Positions 12,282-21,971 of a DNA stretch of 64,000 bases are shown in pieces; the first letter of the stretch is position 1; every line of letters starts with the position of its first letter. The stretch spans positions 1 through 64,000 of the forward strand of contig NZ_JASBQE010000067.1 of the NCBI RefSeq assembly GCF_029960785.1, written 5' to 3'. Below the pieces are notes generated by a model. It worked only from the letters and a program-made list of their open reading frames with translations. It searched no databases and was not told the origin of the DNA. The translations under genes and the position numbers were made by a program. The stretch is from Polyangium sp. 15x6 (lineage in GTDB: Bacteria; Myxococcota_A; Polyangia; Polyangiales; Polyangiaceae).

Positions 12282-13187
12282 GTGACCGCCCCGGCGTGCC
12301 GTCTCACCGAGGTCTTCCTGCAGCAGCAGGCCCGTGAGCAAGGGGCGGCGCGAGGCGAGGAGCACGACGCGCTTTCGGGGCTCCTCGAACGAGCCGTCGC
12401 ATCCGCGCGGGCCGCATGGCCGGAGATCGATGTGCCCGCGGAAGCCTTCGTGCGCTGGCTCTCGGAGCGGATTGCCGCGGCGAACGTGGAGACACTCGAA
12501 CGAGCGCTCGGCACGTTGCGCCTCGGCGATCTCTATCTCGCATGCGCTTGCGCGCGGGGCGACCGCGCGGCGCTCGCGGCGTTCGAGCGGTCCTACGTCC
12601 CGGATCTCATTGCAGCGATCCAGCACGTCGATCGATCCGGTAGCCACGCGGACGACGTCCTGCAGGTGCTGCGGCAAAAGCTGTTCGTGGGAGAACCTTC
12701 GACCGGGCCGAAGATCCGCGAGTACGGCGGCCGCGGGGAGCTGCGCCGGTGGCTCCGTGCCGTCGCGGTGCGCGGCGGCATCGACGCCCTGCGCGCCGCG
12801 CGTGAGATCCCCGTCGAGGACGAGCTGCTCGACGCCATCGAGGTTCCCGCCGACCACCCGGAGCTATTGCACCTGAAGCGCACCTCGCTCGCCGAGCTCA
12901 AGCTCGCCCTGCGCGACGCCCTGGGCGCGCTGTCCGCGCGGGAGCGGACGCTGCTCCAGCAGTACTACCTCGACGGCGCCCACCTGGAGGCGCTCGCCGC
13001 GCTGTACCGAGTCACACCCTCCGCCGTGAGCCGCAGCCTCGCGAAGACGCGCGCGACCCTCATGGGACGGGTGCGGAACGCGCTGATGGCGCGGCTACGG
13101 CTCAGTGGGCGTGAAGTGGACAACATCCTTGTCCTCGTCCAGAGCCAGCTCGAGCTCTCGAGGAGCATGCTCGACGGGCCGTCGTAA
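12282..13187 (+). CDS. RNA polymerase sigma-70 factor, myxobacterial gmx1-like family
   Basis: A 301-residue protein starting at GTG 12282. It has an ECF-like organisation: a region 2-like segment (LYLACACARGDRAALAAFERSYVPDLIAAI, then DDVLQVLRQKLF) and a region 4 helix-turn-helix (LGALSARERTLLQQYYLDG, LAALYRVTPSAVSRSLAKTRATL). The long N-terminal part and the sequence style match the lineage-specific Myxococcales sigma family annotated as Sig-70_gmx1. It is transcribed away from the zinc-finger kinase gene and probably regulated with or by it. Target promoters are unknown. Confidence 0.88.
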   Translation: MTAPACRLTEVFLQQQAREQGAARGEEHDALSGLLERAVASARAAWPEIDVPAEAFVRWLSERIAAANVETLERALGTLRLGDLYLACACARGDRAALAAFERSYVPDLIAAIQHVDRSGSHADDVLQVLRQKLFVGEPSTGPKIREYGGRGELRRWLRAVAVRGGIDALRAAREIPVEDELLDAIEVPADHPELLHLKRTSLAELKLALRDALGALSARERTLLQQYYLDGAHLEALAALYRVTPSAVSRSLAKTRATLMGRVRNALMARLRLSGREVDNILVLVQSQLELSRSMLDGPS

Positions 13188-13346
13188 GGGGAAAGCCCCC
13201 GTAGTTTCGCACACAGACAAACAAAAAACGCAAACGCGCGCTGGTTCTCCGTCCTCTAGGGCGAGCGCCTGCTGCCGGGGCCTCCTCGGGCAGCGGAAGA
13301 CGCATGCGGCTGCGCCCGCCCCTTCATACCCGGAAGACCATCGACC

Positions 13347-14723
13347 ATGACACGTACGCTCGTTGCATCGCTGCTCGCCACGTTCGTCGCCGGATGCGGC
13401 TTCATCAAGGTGGGGGGCCTGCCCTCCGTCTCGTCCGGCGAGCCGTCGGAGGCCTCCGGCGAGGCCGGAGCCGCCGGCCCGAAGTCCACCGACGAGGAGC
13501 TCCTCAAGCTCTACCAGTCGATCGACTACACCTGCTGCACGCAGACGCGCGCGAGCGGCATGGGGTTCTTTCAGAAAGCCGGCGTCGATCAGACGGGGCT
13601 CTTCAAGCGGGGGAACGTCGATCCGGAGTGGATCCCCGGCTGGTCGAACGACCTCTCGACCATCGAGCTCACGAACGCGCTGGCGCAGGGCGCCGTCAAC
13701 CGCACCTGGCAAAAGCAATGCTTCGCCGACTACGAGGACTATCGCAAGGGCTTTGCCGCCATCGAAGGAAAACACCGCCCGCGGTTCGAGGCGCTGCGCA
13801 AGCAGGGCAACTACTACGAGCAGGCCTCGGGCCTGAGCGCGCTCCTGTCCGACGTCGCGAAGGAGGCCGAGCAGAAGGGCCTGAAGCTCCCCGGCTCGCA
13901 TCCGATGACGTGGGTGGGACTGCCTTACGAGATCGTCACCGCCCTCTTCCAGGTGCATCGCGACACGGGGCACGAGTACGCGCTCGCCGATTACGTGAAG
14001 CCCGTGGGGGATCAGGTCGAGAAGTTCTCGCGCTTCGGCCGGCCCTGGTCCGAGGACAAGACGTTCGATCGTGACGTCTTCTGCGCGTACGCCGAGGTGA
14101 ACGGCACGCACCGCACGCCGAAGCTGCCCGATATCGGCGGCTGGGAGCCCGGCCGCGACGCGCCGGTGCGCTGGCCGGTCGCGGCCGAGCGTCACGCCGA
14201 GGTCGAGAAGAAGCTCCAGAGCCTGCAACCGCAATCGGCGGCGGCGCTCACGATCCAGGGATGGAAGGTCCCCAGGCTCGAGATGGGGACGCTCGATCGC
14301 GAGCCGAAGGCGCCCAAGCTCTTCTATACCGGGCCCTACACGATCACCTCCGTCCAGCGCGAGGGCGACAAGGTCGTGATCGGCGGCGAGCAGCGCAAGA
14401 CCGAGCCGTTCAACTACGATTGCCGCTCGACGGGCGTCATCGAGTCGTACGACCTCAACAACAACCCCGTCTACGGGCGCAATTGCAAGGTGGGCTCGAA
14501 GACGAGCATCCGCATCGCGGAGGTCACGTTCCCCGACCTCCCTGCCTCGATTCAGCTCGGCAAGGGGGACGAGATCTCGTTTTATGGCGATCTCGTGCGG
14601 GAGGAGAAGGACAAGTCGGTGAAGCAGACCCCGTCGGAGGTCGTGACCAGCCGCGCCCACGCGTTCGAAGGGAAACACCTCGTGCAGGTGAAGCGCGAGG
14701 GCAAGGTGCTTCACTCGTTCTGA
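13347..14723 (+). CDS. Lipoprotein of unknown function
   Basis: A 458-residue protein with a lipoprotein signal (MTRTLVASLLATFVAGC) and a start preceded by GGAAGA. The body is not recognised. It begins with a short Ser/Glu/Gly linker, then an α-helical part with paired cysteines (YTCCTQT), then a β-rich C-terminal part (YTGPYTITSVQREGDKVVIGG; NCKVGSKTSIRIAEVTFPDL). There is no transmembrane helix besides the signal. It is followed by a GC hairpin and converges with the protease-nuclease gene. It lies 159 bp after the sigma gene and might belong to its regulon; nothing in the sequence proves that. Confidence 0.82.
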   Translation: MTRTLVASLLATFVAGCGFIKVGGLPSVSSGEPSEASGEAGAAGPKSTDEELLKLYQSIDYTCCTQTRASGMGFFQKAGVDQTGLFKRGNVDPEWIPGWSNDLSTIELTNALAQGAVNRTWQKQCFADYEDYRKGFAAIEGKHRPRFEALRKQGNYYEQASGLSALLSDVAKEAEQKGLKLPGSHPMTWVGLPYEIVTALFQVHRDTGHEYALADYVKPVGDQVEKFSRFGRPWSEDKTFDRDVFCAYAEVNGTHRTPKLPDIGGWEPGRDAPVRWPVAAERHAEVEKKLQSLQPQSAAALTIQGWKVPRLEMGTLDREPKAPKLFYTGPYTITSVQREGDKVVIGGEQRKTEPFNYDCRSTGVIESYDLNNNPVYGRNCKVGSKTSIRIAEVTFPDLPASIQLGKGDEISFYGDLVREEKDKSVKQTPSEVVTSRAHAFEGKHLVQVKREGKVLHSF

Positions 14724-14775
14724 CGCGTCGCGAGGGGACACGGCGCCGTCGCTGCGATTCCAACGTTTGAGAAAA

Positions 14776-14802
14776 GGCCCGGACGCAGGGGAGCGCCGGG
14801 CC
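14776..14802. terminator. Possible bidirectional hairpin terminator
   Basis: A 7-bp perfect stem GGCCCGG/CCGGGCC with a 13-nt loop lies in the 90-bp gap between two converging genes (stops at 14723 and 14814). There is no U-tract, so the call rests on position and stem only. Confidence 0.4.
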
Positions 14803-14813
14803 AGCCCCTCGAG

Positions 14814-16682
14814 CTAGAACCGAATATCGCTGGGGTCGGAGACCAGACGGCGCCTGCTCCCCGCCTTCTCTTCCTGCCCGAAGCGATCGTGTTTCTTGAG
14901 ATTCCCGAAATCGAGCCCCGTGAGCTGTTCGATCTCCTCGACGCTCACCTGATAGGTGCGGAATTGCCCATAGGCGAACTCCAGGTCCGTGATCATGCTC
15001 GCCTGGCTCAGCATGTAGGCCGTGACGGAGAGCTCCTTCGTCTCGTCGTCCCGCACCATGGCGACGACCTTCCAGAACTGACGCGGCAACTGGACCGATC
15101 GGTACTCCGGGTCTTCCGCGTCGAGGACCGGCCCGGTGAATACGCAGACCCTGAGCTCGTGCGCCCCCGCGTTGTCCAGCACGTAGTCTTCGAGATCGTT
15201 CCAGACCTTCTGGTTGAGGTCCTTGTGCTGCGGGCAGGCGTTCGTGAAATGGAAGGTATCGTCGTTCGCCTTCTTGGCATCGGCTCCCCAGACAGGGTCG
15301 AGGCGGCGCACCATGTGCCCCCGGTCGAGATCGTTGTTCGCGTACACGCTCGGCCCCGTCTGCCACTCGGCCGGAAGGCGAGGATCATAGCTCCACTTGT
15401 CGCGGGACCGGGGCAGCGCGAGTCGTGAACCGCCGTCGATGTTCACCGCCGTGAAAAACGGCATGCGCCGCGTCTTGTTCATGACGACGGAGAAGTTCGT
15501 GTAGCGGAGCACGAAGTCGTCTGTGCCGTCGATGACGGCGATGTGTGGCTCGAGCACCTGGGCGACCGTGGGAAGAGGAACCTCGTGACCCTTGCCGAGG
15601 AAGTCCTCGACGTACCCCACACGATCACTGTAATCGGTCTTGTTCCGGTCCTTCGCGCGCCCCTCGAGGTCGGCCAGCGACATCGACGGCGCCGCGATTT
15701 CGGCCGGCGCGCGGTCCAGCGTGCGAAGGAGCTCCTCCAGCACGGGGGCAGAGACCGCGTAATTCGCGACCTCCGACCTCCCGCCGAAATGGATCCCCAC
15801 GACCGCGCCCGTCTCGATGTCGACGGCCGGCGAGCCGGAGTTCCCTGCGAGGGTCGTGCAGGTGTGGGCGAAGACCTTGCCGTCGGAGCTCAGGGCGCTG
15901 ACCGTGCCCGGCGAGAGGCGCTTGACGTCGTAAATACCGAGGAAGAGCTCCTCCATCGCGCTTCGATCTTCGTAATAATCCAGCGCCGGATAGCCGATGA
16001 CGGCGACGAGCTGGTCGACGCGCGGCGGAGCCTTTGCGAGGGGGATCGGCGGCGGAACGGCGAGCCCCGGGCGCTCCTCCAGGAGGAGGAACGCGACATC
16101 CGGCGTGTCATCGCCGTCCTCGGCAATGTACAGGACCTTGCTGATCCCGAGCTCCAGCGTGGCAGCCCGCTGATACTCTTCTTTGAAATCGACGCGCGCC
16201 TCCATCGGCGTGCCCATGAATTGCTTGAAAACGAACTTCTTCTCGGCATCCTTCCTGCCGAACTCCTGGGCGACGTGCCTGTTGGTCACGATCACGTTCT
16301 TCGCGATCACCCACCCCGTGCCGACCCAGGGAGCTTGCGGGTGATTGCGTAGCTCGATGCGACCGACCGACGCGATGGCGCTCTCGAGGACCCTCCTGTG
16401 CGGGAGCAATCGGGCCCTCCACGTATCGGTCTCCGGTACCTGAAAGGTGCCATTCTGGATGAAAAGGGCGGGGCGGCCTTTGCGGAGGACGATCTTCTCC
16501 GCCACAGGGTTTTTGGCGAAGAACGGCGTAGCCTCGGCCGCGCTCTCGGGAACGATGCCGACGGACTCGAGGCCTGCTCCCCAGGTTTTCCGCTTGCGGC
16601 CTTGAAACGATGCCGTGTACCGCGAGATTTCCCGGATGAGCTGCTTGTCGGCCAGAATCGCTTCCAGTTGTTTCTTGCGCAT
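14814..16682 (-). CDS. Trypsin-like serine protease fused to DNA/RNA non-specific endonuclease
   Basis: A 622-residue protein without signal peptide; ATG 16682 has GGAGGGG eight nt upstream. The N-terminal part (about 100-325) is a trypsin-fold peptidase: His136 in VTNRHVA, probable Asp195 in TPDVAFLLLEE, Ser282 in LAGNSGSP, followed by VVGIHFGG. The C-terminal part (about 375-590) is a NUC/NucA-type metal-dependent nuclease: LDRGHMVRR with His456, HFTNACPQ with Asn481, and the helix NQKVWNDLEDYV with Glu498. Both active sites look complete. A short helical N-terminus (residues 1-100) is unassigned. Cytosolic protease-nuclease fusions are known in bacterial conflict and cell-death contexts, which would fit an effector cleaved or activated on attack. 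That role is inference. Confidence 0.88.
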   Translation of the reverse strand: MRKKQLEAILADKQLIREISRYTASFQGRKRKTWGAGLESVGIVPESAAEATPFFAKNPVAEKIVLRKGRPALFIQNGTFQVPETDTWRARLLPHRRVLESAIASVGRIELRNHPQAPWVGTGWVIAKNVIVTNRHVAQEFGRKDAEKKFVFKQFMGTPMEARVDFKEEYQRAATLELGISKVLYIAEDGDDTPDVAFLLLEERPGLAVPPPIPLAKAPPRVDQLVAVIGYPALDYYEDRSAMEELFLGIYDVKRLSPGTVSALSSDGKVFAHTCTTLAGNSGSPAVDIETGAVVGIHFGGRSEVANYAVSAPVLEELLRTLDRAPAEIAAPSMSLADLEGRAKDRNKTDYSDRVGYVEDFLGKGHEVPLPTVAQVLEPHIAVIDGTDDFVLRYTNFSVVMNKTRRMPFFTAVNIDGGSRLALPRSRDKWSYDPRLPAEWQTGPSVYANNDLDRGHMVRRLDPVWGADAKKANDDTFHFTNACPQHKDLNQKVWNDLEDYVLDNAGAHELRVCVFTGPVLDAEDPEYRSVQLPRQFWKVVAMVRDDETKELSVTAYMLSQASMITDLEFAYGQFRTYQVSVEEIEQLTGLDFGNLKKHDRFGQEEKAGSRRRLVSDPSDIRF

Positions 16683-16926
16683 GGACTCGTCCCCTCCGCC
16701 CAGACGCCTGCCTCCCGTGCGTCGGCCGCCTCGGTGCGGCCATGCAAAGGTGGGCGTGACAAGACTCGACGCTGGATCGGACGTATGGTTAATCCCGAAG
16801 GGTACACACAACCATCATCCTTTGTAAATGATTTTTGTGCTACGCGGTCCCTTTTGTGCTCACAGATGATTCGGGTTCATGGCGAATGACTGTGGTAACC
16901 CGACGACCATTCAAGCTCACGTGGGC

Positions 16927-16954
16927 GAGGCGCACCGGAGTGCCGGTGCGCCTC
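16927..16954 (-). terminator. Hairpin terminator after the glycyl radical enzyme gene
   Basis: A perfect 12-bp stem (GAGGCGCACCGG with its complement) around a 4-nt loop lies 15 nt downstream of the stop codon at 16969, read on the minus strand. There is no U-tract after it. Position and stem strength support a terminator or 3'-end stabiliser. Confidence 0.6.
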
Positions 16955-16968
16955 GGGTCCCTCGCGTC

Positions 16969-19900
16969 TCAACCCTTGCGATCAGGCGTATTGACGGGGC
17001 GCCTCTGGTGCTGCTCCTGATGCGCCGGGAACATGGCCACGAAGAACTCCGACCAGCCCCCCATGCGCACGCGCAGGAGGTCGTACTTCTCGGGGTCCTT
17101 CCGGGCGCCTGCGAATGTCTCCGCATCGGCGCACGTGATCGTCATGATATTGGAGCCCTGGCCGTCGGCGAAGGCACGAAGGACGCGCTGGAGCGCCTCG
17201 CCGGGGAAGTTCTCGGGGATGTTGAAGTCCGTGGGCGCTCCGTCCCACATCGCCTCGGCGCCGGAACCCGAGAACCCCGCGAGGACCTTGGAGAAAGGCT
17301 GCGCTCGCGGATCGACGGGGGCATCGGCGTAGCTCGGCGAAGGGCTCAGATCGGAGGCGAGCGGATCGCCTCGATGACGGCCGTCCGCCGAGGCGCCGGT
17401 CATGGCTCCCCAATCGAGGTAATTCTCGAAGGTCCCCACGCCGGGCGTGATCTGGAACCCGCCAAAGGGGTGCTGGGGTGTCCCCATCCGCTTCGCGAGG
17501 TCCACCATCTTTTGCGCCGTGGGCTCGGCTGGATTCGTGAAGATCGAGACGATGGTCTCCGCGACGCGCTGGACGAATGCATTCCCGAACGCATCGATGG
17601 CGGCGCTCCCTCGGCCGTACTTGGGCATCGCCATCGCGACCTCGCGCAGCCGCTTGAATCGCTCGGCGCGCGCTTCGATACGCGCGGGGCCAGCCAGCGT
17701 CCCGACGAAGGGCTCGACCATGCTCTCGCCCCAATCGCAGAGAAGCGCCTCGACGAGCTCCGGCAGGGACGTGACCGCGGTGTTCGAATCGAAGACCATC
17801 GCGCGGATGGCCCACAAGGAGTCGATCGTCGTGGAGAGCCCGGTCAGGCAGGGCGCGATCATGTTGTAGCGCGGACCGCCTGCGTAGAAATCGAGGCCCT
17901 TTTCGACGCACCCTTCGACGAAGACCGAAAGCAAGGGCGAGGGGCAATAAGCGCTGAGCTGCCCGTAGACACCGATGGTGCCGTCGACTTGCTTGGCATA
18001 CGAGAAGCGCATGTGCTCGAAGAACAGCTCACACAGCTCCTCGAAGGATCGGATCCCCTTCACGGCCTTCGACGTGAACGATTGCCGCTGCCCGCGGAAC
18101 CAGACCGGCCCGGCCGAGGCCCACGTCATGCCCTGGTTCAGGGCCATCTCGAGCACCTGCGGCAGGGTCAACCCGCCGAGGGTGAACCAGCTCCGCCCCG
18201 AGAGCTGCGGCTCGTAGCAGCCGTCGCACGCGTAATCACGCGCATGGCTGAGCTCGACCTTGCTGTCGAAGAGGCCGCTCGACTTCTCGCGCACGGGCGT
18301 GGCAGCGGTGGGTTTTTCAGGGTCGCCCTCCCCGATCCGATTCCCGCACTGCGCGAGCCCCGGGATGATCTTCTCGTCCGAGAGCAGGATCGGGTGGGCC
18401 CCACCGCTCAGGATGGCGAGAGAGGCCTCGTGCAGGATCTCGTCGGGGATGTCCTTGCGTACGCGCAGGGATAGACACGGTGCATTGAGGGGCAGCCTGC
18501 GCGCGGCGCGAATGCAGAGGAGCGTGACCGCGTTGTACGCACCCGTCCCCTCCCCCGGCGCGTCATCGGCGACCGTACCCCCGACCGTGACCTGCTGGAT
18601 CCACTGGTTGTTCGACGAGCCCTTCGGGTAATTGCCCGCGGAGCCGCCCATGGCCAGGTTTCCGTAGACCTGGTGATCCTCGACGAACTGGCGGTTGATC
18701 TGTACCTTTTCGCCGATCTTGATCCAGAAGCAATCGATGATCTCCTGGGCCTGTTCGTCCGTGAGGCGCCCCGCGGCGACGTCACGCGCATAGAAAGGCG
18801 CGAGGAGCTGATCGAGCCTGCCGATCGCGGTCGGCTCGCCCGTCAGGTGCATGCACGCATGCAGCGTGAAGACGAGCTGCGCGGCCTCCAGGAACGTCTC
18901 CGGAGCCGCCACCGCGAGCTTCTTCATGCGCTGCTCGATCACCAAGAGGTTCTTTCGCTCGGCGCTCTGCCCGGCGCCGAGCTGGGCGGCCATTTCCGCG
19001 GCGAGCCGCGCGTAGGCGAGGCTATACTCCGCGACGCCCTCCAGGGCGAGGATGGAGGCATTGTAGAACGAGCGCTTGCTCGCGTCCGTCGCCGCGTCGC
19101 GCAGGCTTGCGAGCTCCTTCTGGAGATTGCCGATCCCCTTCTCGAGCGCCTTCCCGAAGGCCGGGACGACATGCCCGACCCCGGAAGCATACCCGAGCCC
19201 GGCGAAGAAGTTCTGGGTACGCTCGTCGTCCCGCGCGTAATCGATGAGGTATTTGCCCTGCCCGAGCCCGAGGTTCGGCAATGCGCCGACGATCAGCTCC
19301 GCGGGCTGGATGCGGTAGGTGTCGGCGCCGTTGATCCAGTCCCCATGTTCGTCCCTCCGCCGCCCGCGGAATCCGTATTCGTGGCTCGTGAACACGTCTC
19401 CGAGCGCGACCTTGAAGGCCCAGGCCATGCGCTCCGCGACGGGCAAGGCCATCACCCTGTCGGCCTCCGCGCGGCCATGTTTTTTCTCGATGTAGGCGGA
19501 GAGATGCCCGAGCTCCTGCTGCGCGCGATCGAAATACCACCCGTCCTGCCAGCGCGAGAAGGCGTTCGCCAGGAGCTTGAGGACGCGGTTCGAGGGCGGC
19601 AGATACCGCTCACGATCCTTCCCGCTCATGGTCGCCATCCGGAAGAGGTACTCCTTGTGGTTGTAATGCATGTACCCGTTCTCGGACGCCTCGCGGAAAT
19701 GCCGATCGAGCCGGCTCCAATCGACGCCGGGGAAGCGCTTCCAGTTGGTCGTCTCCAGCGGGGAGAGGTTCGTCGGCGCGAGGCCCAGATCCGTGAGGCT
19801 CGGGATATAATAAAACCCCCCGAGATCGGAGCGCGCATGAGCGAGGAGCCGATCGGCCATGAAGCCCTCGCGGGCGCCGATCTGCTGGTTCATGATGGTC

Positions 19901-20916
19901 TCGAGCACGCCCACGTTCTTCGCGTAACCCGCGAAATAGATGCCGGCCTCGTCGCGCACGCTCGCGCCCTTCGCGCGGAGATTCTCGCTGTTCACGGCCG
20001 CCGATTGGCCGAAGGGCAGCCCGAGGCGGAGCACCTGCATCGTGTTGCCATGCTGGTTCTGCGCCCGCGCGCACTTGATGTGGCTGTGATCGTCACGCGA
20101 CGGGACGAGCGCGTCCTCCGTCGTTCGCCCGACGAGATCTTCGATGTGCTGGGGGCTCATGTCGAGGAGCTGGTCCCAGTTGAGGTAGAAGCGCTGGGCG
20201 AGCACGTACGAGGCGCCGATATGGTCGGGATCCTCGAAGCCGACGATGGTATTCTCCTGAATGCTCACGGGATCCGTGGGGTTGTTCAGGTTCTCGGAGA
20301 AGCGGCACCCGATGACCTTGCCCCCCATCTTGTCGGGGCTGTTCGATTTCGTGGCGGCACTCTGGTGGACGGTGCGCGTGGGATCCACGCAGCGATCGAT
20401 CTCCTCGAGGCGACGCTTCAGGTACTCGAAGACCTTGGTGCAATTCTCGCTCACGTCGCTCTTGATGTGAAACCAGAGATCCGCCTCCGAGTCGACGAAG
20501 CTACTCCCGCGGCGCGTGAAGAGGGCCGAGCGGCTCTCGGACGTGGAGCCGTCCTCTTCCTGCGCGGGAAAGACGAGCTTCATGCCCGCGGGCGGCGCCT
20601 TGCCTTCCGCTGCGCACATCTCCCGCCAGAGCTCGAAGCCGACGCCCATGACGGCGGTCGTGTGGGAGTTGCCCCAGGAGATGTGGATTTCTTCGCGCAT
20701 GTCCACGAGCAGGCGGCGGAGGGTCTGGATCGAGACCGGCGCGCCGACGCCAGGGGGATTGCGGAAAAAAGTCGCGAAGACCGCGTAAGGAGATGGATAA
20801 ACGAGTCCCCGTTGCGTGAAAGACCAGATTCGATGACTCGTCTGGTTGCCCGCCTGGGTGGACAGATCCTCGGCGGACTCACGGTGCAAGGATTGACCGA
20901 TCGAACCTTCCTGCAT
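16969..20916 (-). CDS. DyP-type peroxidase-like domain fused to a glycyl radical enzyme
   Basis: A 1315-residue soluble fusion. ATG 20916 is preceded by GAGGGAG, so longer starts are unlikely. Residues about 30-400 resemble dye-decolorising peroxidases: RFSENLNNP, then EDPDHIGASYVLAQRF, DDHSHIKCARA with candidate proximal heme ligand His279, VLRLGLPFG, and AGIYFAGYAKN followed by RLLAHARSDLGGFYYIPSL. The GxxDG motif reads GCRFS, so the usual catalytic Asp is missing. Residues about 480-1315 are a glycyl radical enzyme: VGHVVPAFGKAL, Cys900 with Glu902 in DGCYEP, and Gly1287 in VRMGGWSEFF. GCxEP is the dehydratase/lyase type, not the Cys-Cys of pyruvate formate-lyase. Such enzymes need a radical-SAM activase; none is in the window. 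The substrate is unknown. Confidence 0.88.
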   Translation of the reverse strand: MQEGSIGQSLHRESAEDLSTQAGNQTSHRIWSFTQRGLVYPSPYAVFATFFRNPPGVGAPVSIQTLRRLLVDMREEIHISWGNSHTTAVMGVGFELWREMCAAEGKAPPAGMKLVFPAQEEDGSTSESRSALFTRRGSSFVDSEADLWFHIKSDVSENCTKVFEYLKRRLEEIDRCVDPTRTVHQSAATKSNSPDKMGGKVIGCRFSENLNNPTDPVSIQENTIVGFEDPDHIGASYVLAQRFYLNWDQLLDMSPQHIEDLVGRTTEDALVPSRDDHSHIKCARAQNQHGNTMQVLRLGLPFGQSAAVNSENLRAKGASVRDEAGIYFAGYAKNVGVLETIMNQQIGAREGFMADRLLAHARSDLGGFYYIPSLTDLGLAPTNLSPLETTNWKRFPGVDWSRLDRHFREASENGYMHYNHKEYLFRMATMSGKDRERYLPPSNRVLKLLANAFSRWQDGWYFDRAQQELGHLSAYIEKKHGRAEADRVMALPVAERMAWAFKVALGDVFTSHEYGFRGRRRDEHGDWINGADTYRIQPAELIVGALPNLGLGQGKYLIDYARDDERTQNFFAGLGYASGVGHVVPAFGKALEKGIGNLQKELASLRDAATDASKRSFYNASILALEGVAEYSLAYARLAAEMAAQLGAGQSAERKNLLVIEQRMKKLAVAAPETFLEAAQLVFTLHACMHLTGEPTAIGRLDQLLAPFYARDVAAGRLTDEQAQEIIDCFWIKIGEKVQINRQFVEDHQVYGNLAMGGSAGNYPKGSSNNQWIQQVTVGGTVADDAPGEGTGAYNAVTLLCIRAARRLPLNAPCLSLRVRKDIPDEILHEASLAILSGGAHPILLSDEKIIPGLAQCGNRIGEGDPEKPTAATPVREKSSGLFDSKVELSHARDYACDGCYEPQLSGRSWFTLGGLTLPQVLEMALNQGMTWASAGPVWFRGQRQSFTSKAVKGIRSFEELCELFFEHMRFSYAKQVDGTIGVYGQLSAYCPSPLLSVFVEGCVEKGLDFYAGGPRYNMIAPCLTGLSTTIDSLWAIRAMVFDSNTAVTSLPELVEALLCDWGESMVEPFVGTLAGPARIEARAERFKRLREVAMAMPKYGRGSAAIDAFGNAFVQRVAETIVSIFTNPAEPTAQKMVDLAKRMGTPQHPFGGFQITPGVGTFENYLDWGAMTGASADGRHRGDPLASDLSPSPSYADAPVDPRAQPFSKVLAGFSGSGAEAMWDGAPTDFNIPENFPGEALQRVLRAFADGQGSNIMTITCADAETFAGARKDPEKYDLLRVRMGGWSEFFVAMFPAHQEQHQRRPVNTPDRKG

Positions 20917-21144
20917 TGCAATGTTCTCCCTCGGAATTGGACAAACCATCCCCATGGCGAGACGTCTCCCGCTCCGGGAACCTATCCCCTCGCCCCGCCA
21001 TGGGGCCGCGCCCCTGATCGACTGTCGACCGACGCCCCCGCCCCCGATTCGTTCGACCTGCGGGTTGTTGCAACGACAACAAGAAAGGACGAACACTGTC
21101 AAGAACTATTTGCCCACGCTCGCGCAAGCGCGCGGGCACAACGT

Positions 21145-21159
21145 GTTACGTGCCGTAAC
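21145..21159. promoter_or_regulatory. Small palindrome upstream of the DyP-glycyl radical gene
   Basis: A perfect inverted repeat GTTACG-TGC-CGTAAC lies in the 272-bp region ahead of the gene starting at 20916 (about 230 bp upstream). A TTGACA hexamer reads on the minus strand at 21102-21097, but no good -10 follows. It could be a regulator site or part of the preceding gene's 3' end. Confidence 0.3.
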
Positions 21160-21188
21160 GTAGGCTTTGCTTGCCCCTCACCACCCGT

Positions 21189-21971
21189 TCATCCGAGCAG
21201 CGAGGGGCCCTCCACGAACGTGAATCCTTCCTGCGGCACCACGGCCCGCACCTTGTACCAGCGCAGCACCGCTTCCTCGGACCGATCAGCCATGGGCGCC
21301 GTCCACGCGCGGTCGAGGCGCATTCTGTCCCGGAGTCGCAGCACGAGCCCCCGGCCGTCACGCGCGGCCGCCACCCCCTCGAACCGCAAAAGTCGGAAGG
21401 ATCGATCCGCGCGCTCCACCAGCACATCCGAGATCCCGGCATCACACACGGACGCAAAGCGCAGCCGTTCGACCACGAAGATCGCCCCGAAGAGCGGCAC
21501 GTAATCGCAGCGGTTGCGATTGTGGCGCCCTCGACCTGGCACCGATCCTCGCGAAATGCGGCCCTCGTCGCTCGACAGCTTCCACATCCCATCGAGCACG
21601 CGCGCCGCCACGACCCCCTCGACCCGCCGGAGCTCTCGCAAGGAGATGAACGGCAGCGCAGGAAAACGCAGGCCGTGCGGCTCGTTCGGGGAATGATCGG
21701 GTCGCTTCAGCGGCGCGAGCGTCCGGTTCCAGCGCAGGCGCCTCACCAGTCGGATCCGCGTGGCGATTGCAGGGTTTTGAAGATCGTCCGGCAGCTCGCT
21801 CCCCGGACGCAGCTCGGGCTCCGTGGCGTCGCGCAATTCGAAGAGCGACAGTTCGTGCCGTGTCAAGCCATTGGCCTGCCTGAGCCGAAAGAGCAGGTCA
21901 CGCGCCGACAGCGCCGTCAGGTGGACGAGCCGGCCATCCCCCGCGAACCCGAGGCCGATCGGCTCGATCAC
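21189..21971 (-). CDS. Protein of unknown function, downstream partner of 21974-22732
   Basis: A 260-residue protein starting at GTG 21971, two nucleotides after the stop of the preceding gene, so the two are almost certainly cotranscribed and translationally coupled. No signal peptide or transmembrane segment. It is Arg- and Leu-rich and appears β-rich, with segments such as LGFAGDGRLVHLTALSARDLLFRL, FPALPFISLRELRRVEGVVAARVLDG and a C-terminal VRAVVPQEGFTFVEGP. I do not recognise a family. Longer upstream reading in the same frame overlaps the coiled-coil gene and is not supported. Confidence 0.72.
   Translation of the reverse strand: MIEPIGLGFAGDGRLVHLTALSARDLLFRLRQANGLTRHELSLFELRDATEPELRPGSELPDDLQNPAIATRIRLVRRLRWNRTLAPLKRPDHSPNEPHGLRFPALPFISLRELRRVEGVVAARVLDGMWKLSSDEGRISRGSVPGRGRHNRNRCDYVPLFGAIFVVERLRFASVCDAGISDVLVERADRSFRLLRFEGVAAARDGRGLVLRLRDRMRLDRAWTAPMADRSEEAVLRWYKVRAVVPQEGFTFVEGPSLLG

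Follow-up and report, generated by a model that had tools for sequence, protein, structure and literature searches.

The gene at positions 16,969 to 20,916 on the minus strand of the window (the whole stretch of DNA analysed here, 64,000 nucleotides from the soil bacterium Polyangium sp. 15x6) specifies a glycyl radical enzyme (GRE) of a distinct family that travels with a DyP-type heme domain, either fused to it or encoded by an adjacent gene. These DyP-linked GREs look like GREs without an activase, a description that we did not find in print among open-licence PMC papers. The fusion architecture itself is already known.

The preliminary description of this DNA was aware of no described family with such a fusion. 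A DyP-PFL architecture has, however, been published and its function called "elusive" (PMC5041501). The part of that paper dealing with these proteins describes DyP B-PFL fusions from Chaetomium and from bacteria, takes it that a PFL activase activates them and gives no function. For Chaetomium cochliodes it reports a putative activase of the PFL type, and expression of the fungal fused gene is reported to rise 3-fold under H2O2 and 18.5-fold under peroxyacetic acid. Judged from this description and not from sequence, the published proteins and the window protein most likely belong to the same family.

Domains, conserved residues and relatives of the fusion

The gene is a single open frame with an ATG start that encodes 1315 residues plus a stop codon, a layout shared by its relatives; an alternative TTG start at 21,102 could give a longer frame. 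The DyP-type peroxidase domain spans residues ∼32–376 (19,789–20,823, minus strand, as are all features below), its start being placed by homology to the relatives. NCBIfam TIGR01413 (Dyp-type peroxidase) matched residues 80–376 with 112.7 bits against a cut-off of 100.5, and Pfam Dyp_perox_C matched residues 211–374 with 56.9 bits, also above its cut-off. The GRE domain, residues ∼395–1302 (17,011–19,734), was assigned through TIGR01774, PF02901 (PFL-like; residues 566–1123, 359.9 bits, cut-off 24.3) and the fold of a relative, whereas the Pfam Gly_radical profile reached 15.4 bits, below its cut-off of 22.2. The fusion scored below the cut-off of every GRE equivalog of known function tested, namely CutC (169.9 versus 1050), HypD (143.8 versus 1100), PFL (24.3 versus 994.2), sulfopropanediol dehydratase, HPAD, and indoleacetate decarboxylase.

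The fold was read from a model of the relative L018, standing in for the window protein. Its DyP part matched PDB entry 6fks with a Z-score of 28.5 and its GRE part matched 5i2g with a Z-score of 29.3; the mean pLDDT is 74.6, falling below 50 at residues 1136–1167, where the radical loop lies, and the model is too poor for domain geometry. The DyP profile match and the DyP fold of this model exclude a plain GRE extension at residues 30–400. Together with the conserved Cys, Glu, and Gly residues, the profiles bear out the initial reading of a DyP-like domain and a complete GRE in one polypeptide.

Eighteen loci in other organisms match the fusion with 36–67% identity; 15 of the matches start no later than residue 35 and extend past residue 1306, and three begin at residue 126 or 199. 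The joined gene thus recurs in many genomes, ruling out the suspicion that a frameshift or a sequencing or assembly error had united two genes. In total, we found 23 DyP-linked GREs, including the window protein, scattered over Myxococcota, Cyanobacteria, Actinomycetes, Proteobacteria, Acidobacteria, and others. All 23 fall into a single clade, which has a radical loop of its own, R[MT]GGW, and in two of them (L021 and L103) the GRE and the DyP are separate neighbouring genes. None of 39 pattern matches in viral_contigs was confirmed as a viral relative.

Alignment to solved DyPs and to the family identified His279 (20,080–20,082) as the expected proximal heme ligand and Arg297 (20,026–20,028) as the expected distal Arg, both characteristic of DyP peroxidases. 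The Asp of the GxxDG motif, also characteristic, is absent, as the preliminary description had noticed; the position is filled by Glu208 (20,293–20,295), and the distal Arg is retained. In B-type DyPs, Arg and not Asp is essential. The Asp-to-Glu exchange is common to the window's clade. Across the family, the distal residue is Asp in six of the 23 members and changed in the other 17, five of which carry His; the same five lack the distal Arg, which makes peroxidase action doubtful in them. These five include members from Scalindua and Desulfobacca, lineages known for anaerobic life, and from the one genome (G011) among the 18 carriers surveyed, several of them MAGs, in which COX1 is missing. 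COX1 is present in the other 17, and terminal oxidase genes in the window's genome are in agreement with the earlier impression of an aerobic host.

In the GRE domain, Cys900 (18,217–18,219), the expected thiyl radical site, and Gly1287 (17,056–17,058), the expected glycyl radical site, are conserved in 23/23 DyP-linked and 11/11 ordinary GREs. Glu902 (18,211–18,213) of the Cys-x-Glu motif is present in all 23 DyP-linked GREs, and His582 (19,171–19,173) corresponds in the alignment to the GVGH His of glycerol dehydratase. The family alignment confirmed the positions of His279, Cys900, Glu902, and Gly1287 proposed from the window alone. The usual loop of ordinary GREs, R[VI][SA]GY, is absent from the fusion, which has RMGGW around Gly1287; the family loop differs from the usual one at three positions. 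Four Trp residues (Trp456, Trp460, Trp1062, and Trp1288) are invariant in the DyP-linked family.

Activases in the carrier genomes

Enzymes of the GRE kind are usually met in anaerobic life and, to our knowledge, those with an established function have their radical generated by a radical-SAM activase in the absence of oxygen. No activase gene lies beside the fusion gene in the window, as had been noted before, and the window's genome contains no match above the TIGR02494 or TIGR02493 cut-off. An activase elsewhere in that genome, the possibility raised earlier, was therefore not seen at these cut-offs; an unlinked NrdG-like protein (L068) is present, scoring 100.3 bits with TIGR02491, below the cut-off of 126.1. 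It occurs in all six genomes of the genus, five of which have no PFL-like gene. For this reason a dedicated activase role is not favoured, although the protein is a possible borrowed activase.

A canonical activase was found in four of the 18 carrier genomes, each time adjoining a second, ordinary GRE. The remaining 14 carriers have DyP-linked GREs only and no activase over the TIGR02494 and TIGR02493 cut-offs; the window's genome and three more of these encode an NrdG-like protein above 100 bits without NrdD, and in a fifth (G017) the NrdG-like protein adjoins NrdD. In nine of the 18 carriers all three markers are missing: a canonical activase, an NrdG-like protein above 100 bits, and an NrdD over its cut-off. 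In the one genome in which the radical-SAM set was named fully (G006), none of the 12 proteins found is an activase, and three bear family names lacking known function. Five weaker activase-like matches that were examined (L026–L030) proved to belong to the AmmeMemoRadiSam family, four of them over its cut-off and L028 below it (201.5 versus 220).

As a control, Myxococcota genomes whose PFL-like genes are of other kinds were compared with those holding the DyP-GRE fusion alone; TIGR02494 was detected in 49 of the 50 former and in neither of the two latter. In five of the former (L111–L115), activase and GRE share one frame with the activase at the N terminus, all five scoring over the TIGR02494 cut-off. 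The DyP domain of the fusion occupies the place where a fused activator can stand.

A proposed role for the heme domain and its alternatives

Because most carriers lack a recognised activase, we favour a reading in which the DyP heme domain replaces the radical-SAM activase and starts the GRE radical, with a probability of about 0.4. The preliminary description had offered protection, oxygen sensing, or electron transfer; the activase survey points rather to radical initiation, and all of these roles are conjectural. The DyP domain would bind heme, and a ferryl species would arise there by reaction with peroxide or another O2-derived oxidant. This might then take an electron from the GRE domain by way of conserved Trp/Tyr residues, producing a radical at Cys900 that Gly1287 may store. 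Cys900, Glu902, and His582 could next carry out an eliminase-type reaction (dehydratase or lyase) on a small substrate. In its fuller form, a self-starting GRE for oxygen-exposed cells in which peroxide at the heme yields the thiyl/glycyl radical with no radical-SAM activation, the proposal is tentative. By analogy, the fusion might relate to ordinary GREs as oxygen-dependent class I relates to class III ribonucleotide reductase.

Initiation by the heme is consistent with the invariant Cys, Glu, and Gly, the distinctive loop and the four Trp residues, with COX1 in nearly all carriers, with the adjoining DyP gene where the two are unfused, and with the peroxide induction reported for the fungal gene (PMC5041501). 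Against it stand the exposure of a glycyl radical to O2 attack, the loss of the distal Arg in five family members, the putative activase that the same paper reports in Chaetomium cochliodes, and the NrdG-like proteins in five of the 14 carriers without canonical activase. The last two observations, with the intact Cys/Gly pair, would also suit a normal GRE that the DyP domain protects or gates by peroxide removal or O2 sensing, and whose activation in trans falls to a radical-SAM protein that is non-canonical or borrowed, be it NrdG-like or another; peroxide induction fits protection too. We regard this as a credible alternative at less than even odds, as the nine carriers devoid of all three markers, the genus-wide NrdG-like protein of the window's genome, and the absence of any unnamed radical-SAM protein in G006, its three families lacking known function notwithstanding, argue against it.

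A further reading, compatible with the others and apparently unlikely, is that the gene acts in mobile islands devoted to conflict or defence, alongside neighbouring genes for nucleases, proteases, and sensors. A trypsin-like/non-specific endonuclease gene, assigned by Pfam, lies 157 bases downstream of the fusion (14,814–16,811), and a homologue is found near the fusion in L019. PLD-like genes occur near the fusion or gene pair in L004, L012, L014, L019, and L021, while L017 has DNase II and phosphoesterase genes nearby; L103 is flanked by TIR and CHAT genes, and L021 by genes for a STAND-type ATPase and trypsin-like proteins; positions 14,730–21,418 of the window had no DNA match in same-genus genomes (40 candidates scored per genome). 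However, the close clade L002–L011 showed no shared operon, with PLD-like/phosphoesterase neighbours in L004 only, and the neighbour families, taken from simple ORF calls of which a selected part was profile-scanned, were counted without a background rate. No PADLOC family matched the fusion with an E-value of 0.01 or lower, and the fusion was rejected as a known defence family. The PLD-like/phosphoesterase neighbours and the likeness to CutC and glycerol dehydratase allow a guess, and only that, at phospholipid head-group catabolism.

A non-radical GRE part, with the conserved residues serving structure or other chemistry and the DyP as the working domain, would fit the altered loop and the scarcity of recognised activases but is improbable, since Cys900, Glu902, and Gly1287 are retained throughout the family across many phyla and the DyP is the more altered part (Asp changed in 17/23, Arg missing in 5/23).

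If radical initiation by the heme domain is correct, it would represent a second way to start GRE chemistry and a heme-based parallel to the oxygen-dependent ribonucleotide reductases. Such a mechanism would be relevant to how radical enzymes came to terms with oxygen, and it might yield a GRE that is simply switched on.

Comparison with known systems

The Chaetomium and bacterial DyP B-PFL proteins described in PMC5041501 have an N-terminal DyP and a C-terminal PFL/GRE, as here. Glycerol/propanediol dehydratase and CutC share with the fusion family the fold, the Cys-x-Glu motif, His582, and the radical Gly, but identity is at most 22% in the listed structure alignments; the fusion differs from them in its R[MT]GGW loop, its DyP domain, and the absence of an adjacent activase, and it does not keep Asp447 of glycerol dehydratase. 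With B-type and other DyPs the fusion shares the fold, as seen in L018, the proximal His, and the distal Arg, and is set apart by its junction to a GRE and by Glu in place of Asp in the window's clade. The Myxococcota fusions L111–L115 are likewise single chains with an extra domain N-terminal to the GRE; theirs is a radical-SAM activase, whereas that of the fusion is a heme domain. In class I ribonucleotide reductase, an oxidant-made di-metal centre in a separate subunit starts a Cys radical. The scheme proposed here would be analogous, as an oxidant-made metal centre would likewise generate the radical on a Cys within a related barrel, except that the centre would be a heme and that the fusion keeps the conserved Gly.

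Domain architecture and relatives of the fusion

The open frame at 16969-20916 on the minus strand encodes 1315 residues. Residues 80-376 match a Dyp-type peroxidase (NCBIfam TIGR01413, 112.7 bits against a cut-off of 100.5) and residues 566-1123 a PFL-like domain (Pfam, 359.9 bits); a Gly_radical match at residues 1242-1293 falls under the Pfam cut-off. Among solved structures, the N-terminal part matched DyPs and the glycyl radical enzyme (GRE) part matched glycerol dehydratase, diol dehydratase, and CutC. A structural model was built for L018, the 1167-residue relative from Andreprevotia (18-row alignment, mean pLDDT 74.6, pTM 0.73). Its residues 8-302 matched DyPs (6fks, Z 28.5, rmsd 2.6, 281 aligned) and its residues 343-1167 matched GREs (5i2g, Z 29.3, rmsd 3.1, 685 aligned), with low confidence in the radical loop.

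One scan of genome contigs revealed 18 loci with 36-67% identity to the fusion. Their sources are Corallococcus (two), Archangium, and a Myxococcales MAG; Anabaena, Amazonocrinis, Actinophytocola (two), Saccharopolyspora (L010, whose gene spans two frames), Chromobacterium, Azohydromonas, and Andreprevotia; and a Rhodobacter MAG, a Ctena symbiont, and MAGs of Gemmatimonadota, Scalindua, Desulfobacca, and Acidobacteria. A plasmid search added one fused copy from Asticcacaulis (L020) and a Hymenobacter locus (L021, 9935-13700) in which a GRE split over two frames is followed by a DyP gene also broken by a frame change, reflecting either a decayed gene or a sequencing error. Searching the carrier genomes, those with a DyP-linked GRE, yielded two more loci: Archangium carries another fused copy (L104), and the Acidobacteria MAG has an 888-residue GRE with a separate 443-residue DyP directly 3' (L103). 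Window included, this gives 23 DyP-linked GREs, 21 fused and 2 unfused; because the fusion was mostly the query, DyP-less members of the clade may have escaped.

The preliminary description knew of no described family with this fusion, which has in fact been in print since at least 2016 (PMC5041501, which cites a 2014 encyclopedia article). In searches of literature outside subscription journals, mostly of titles and abstract openings, we recognized no second account of the fusion, nor any report that activases are missing or that a heme drives GRE activation.

Conserved residues of the DyP-linked family

In a midpoint-rooted tree of the GRE parts, for which the program warned of long branches, the 23 DyP-linked members split from 11 ordinary GREs (PFL-like enzymes without a DyP link) with branch support of 100/100. 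The two unfused pairs grouped together (100/99), beside fused members (fork 92/99). Every DyP-linked GRE has the radical loop R[MT]GGW, 22 of them with Met and one with Thr; at 31 of 34 ordinary loci the loop reads R[VI][SA]GY, the other three lacking any pattern match. The family alignment bore out the positions first assigned to His279, Cys900, Glu902, and Gly1287, and the latter three, together with His582, are kept in 23/23 members, as are Trp456, Trp460, Trp731, Trp1062, Trp1288, His686, His1303, and Cys801. Position 1288, Trp in the DyP-linked enzymes, is Tyr in all 11 ordinary GREs; none of these has Trp at position 1062, and counterparts of Trp456, Trp731, and His686 each occur in two.

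Alignment to solved DyPs and to the family confirmed that the GxxDG Asp is absent from the window protein, as it had seemed to be, and placed Glu208 at its position; the distal Arg position is Arg297, within VLRLGLPF. Twelve members have Glu at the distal position (window, L002-L011, L020), five have His (L012-L015, L019), and six have Asp (L016-L018, L104, and both unfused members, L021 and L103); the sites of L103, L104, and L021 were read by eye, and the L021 His and Arg lie in a shifted frame. Members with Glu or Asp retain the distal Arg, which the His class lacks, and the proximal His occurs in all 21 fused members. Since the unfused pairs retain Asp, a normal peroxidase site was probably ancestral in the family.

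COX1 was found in 17 of the 18 carriers searched, being absent from G011. The His class includes Scalindua and Desulfobacca, which are known as anaerobes, so the DyP-linked family as a whole is not confined to aerobes.

Proposed source of the glycyl radical

Eighteen carrier genomes (the window's and those of all contig loci except L014, plasmid records being left out) were searched for PFL-like genes, radical-SAM GRE activases (TIGR02494, TIGR02493), NrdG-like proteins (Fer4_12), and class III RNR. Activases over either cut-off occur in four (G004, G007, G011, G016), each adjoining an ordinary GRE. The PFL-like genes of the other 14 are all DyP-linked, with no activase above these cut-offs. 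Among these 14, the window's genome (G000), G002, G003, and G005 encode an NrdG-like protein without NrdD (Fer4_12, 108-135 bits), G017 has one beside NrdD, and nine (G001, G006, G008, G009, G010, G012, G013, G014, G015) have neither such protein nor NrdD, apart from an NrdD fragment in G012 at 22 bits, below cut-off. Some lower-scoring Fer4_12 match occurs in all 18 carriers, and a TIGR02494 match at E <= 0.001 in 16 of 18, as in 13 of 14 control genomes; such low scores are widespread among radical-SAM proteins. In G006, each of the 13 radical-SAM matches, from 12 proteins, received a family name: MoaA, MiaB, PqqE, HemW, BioB, RimO, LipA, RlmN, CofGH, and TIGR03960, Rv2578c, and Pput_1520, the last three being families without known function.

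Five weaker activase-like proteins (G000, G003, G008, G012, G017) were set aside as matches to the AmmeMemoRadiSam family. On contig C133 of the window's genome (L030, 1240-3042), an AmmeMemoRadiSam-type radical-SAM domain forms residues 271-599 of a 601-residue frame. The NrdG-like protein on C208 (L068, 3282-3935), in a host without NrdD, occurs in each of the six genomes available for the genus.

As a control, 52 of 283 Myxococcota genomes gave a PFL-like match. Two carry only the fusion, G000 and G219, the latter being the MAG of L004, since its coordinates and score equal those of G003. The remaining 50 have other PFL-like genes; the loop was read at 30 of these loci, and the rest were assumed to be ordinary. 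TIGR02494 at E <= 1e-20 was found in 49 genomes, all within the 50 (exception G257; 47 above cut-off), and in neither fusion-only genome, with 8 candidates scored per genome and G000 (all 34) and G003 (all 27) scored completely. Because the genomes share ancestry and include several MAGs, a missing activase in any single one is weak evidence.

Five of the 49 encode an activase and a GRE in one frame of 1080-1170 residues, activase N-terminal: L111 405-3743 (G046), L112 61-3300 (G080), L113 103-3612 (G099), L114 87-3326 (G174), and L115 485-3952 (G019). Each scores 196-222 bits with TIGR02494 (cut-off 174.35) and carries the loop RIAGY or RVAGY, indicating that an activator can occupy the place of the DyP domain. 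Among the papers listed by one literature search, none described such proteins.

The retained Cys, Glu, and Gly, the family's own radical loop, the lack of a recognized activase in most carriers, and the DyP in the members seen are most simply explained if the heme domain makes the GRE radical, a reading to which we give a probability of about 0.4. We consider it nearly as probable that the DyP-linked enzyme is a protected GRE activated by an unrecognized activase. PMC5041501 reports a putative PFL activase for Chaetomium cochliodes which, if right, counts against a heme-made radical; in the same paper, H2O2 raised expression of this fungus's fused gene 3-fold and peroxyacetic acid raised it 18.5-fold.

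Gene surroundings and likeness to glycerol dehydratase

No PFL-like gene occurs in the five same-genus genomes. Window positions 12282-14730 match three of them at 89-90% and 13212-14730 a fourth at 89%; 26137-27934 matches four at 74-91%, at another location. Among 40 candidates scored per genome, nothing matched 14730-21418, and from 21418 to 26.0 kb there were short pieces only and one 1.5-kb stretch in G267. The fusion and a trypsin-endonuclease gene thus lie in a strain-specific stretch. The latter gene (14814-16811, minus strand) joins a trypsin-like peptidase to a non-specific endonuclease and has a homologue near the fusion in L019.

In other lineages, the fusion or pair lies near PLD-like, phosphoesterase, DNase II, HAD-like, deaminase, metallo-beta-lactamase, TIR, CHAT, and STAND genes; these neighbors are a lead. 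In the Acidobacteria MAG (L103 2551-12961, contig C44 of G013), the unfused GRE and DyP are followed by HAD-like and metallo-beta-lactamase genes, with TIR and CHAT genes flanking. A common HAD-like protein with the motif FFDxDDN lies near the fusion, beside PLD-like genes, at L012 13830-14663, L014 5207-6211, and L019 14216-15022, and gave no Pfam match in L012 and L019, the two scanned. A cytidine/deoxycytidylate deaminase (L019 13358-14209) sits between the PLD-like and HAD-like genes.

By the structure-search alignment, the window GRE has equivalents of His164, Cys433, and Glu435 of glycerol dehydratase and, unlike that enzyme, does not keep the equivalent of its Asp447. From these residues, our guess is that the GRE part is an eliminase.
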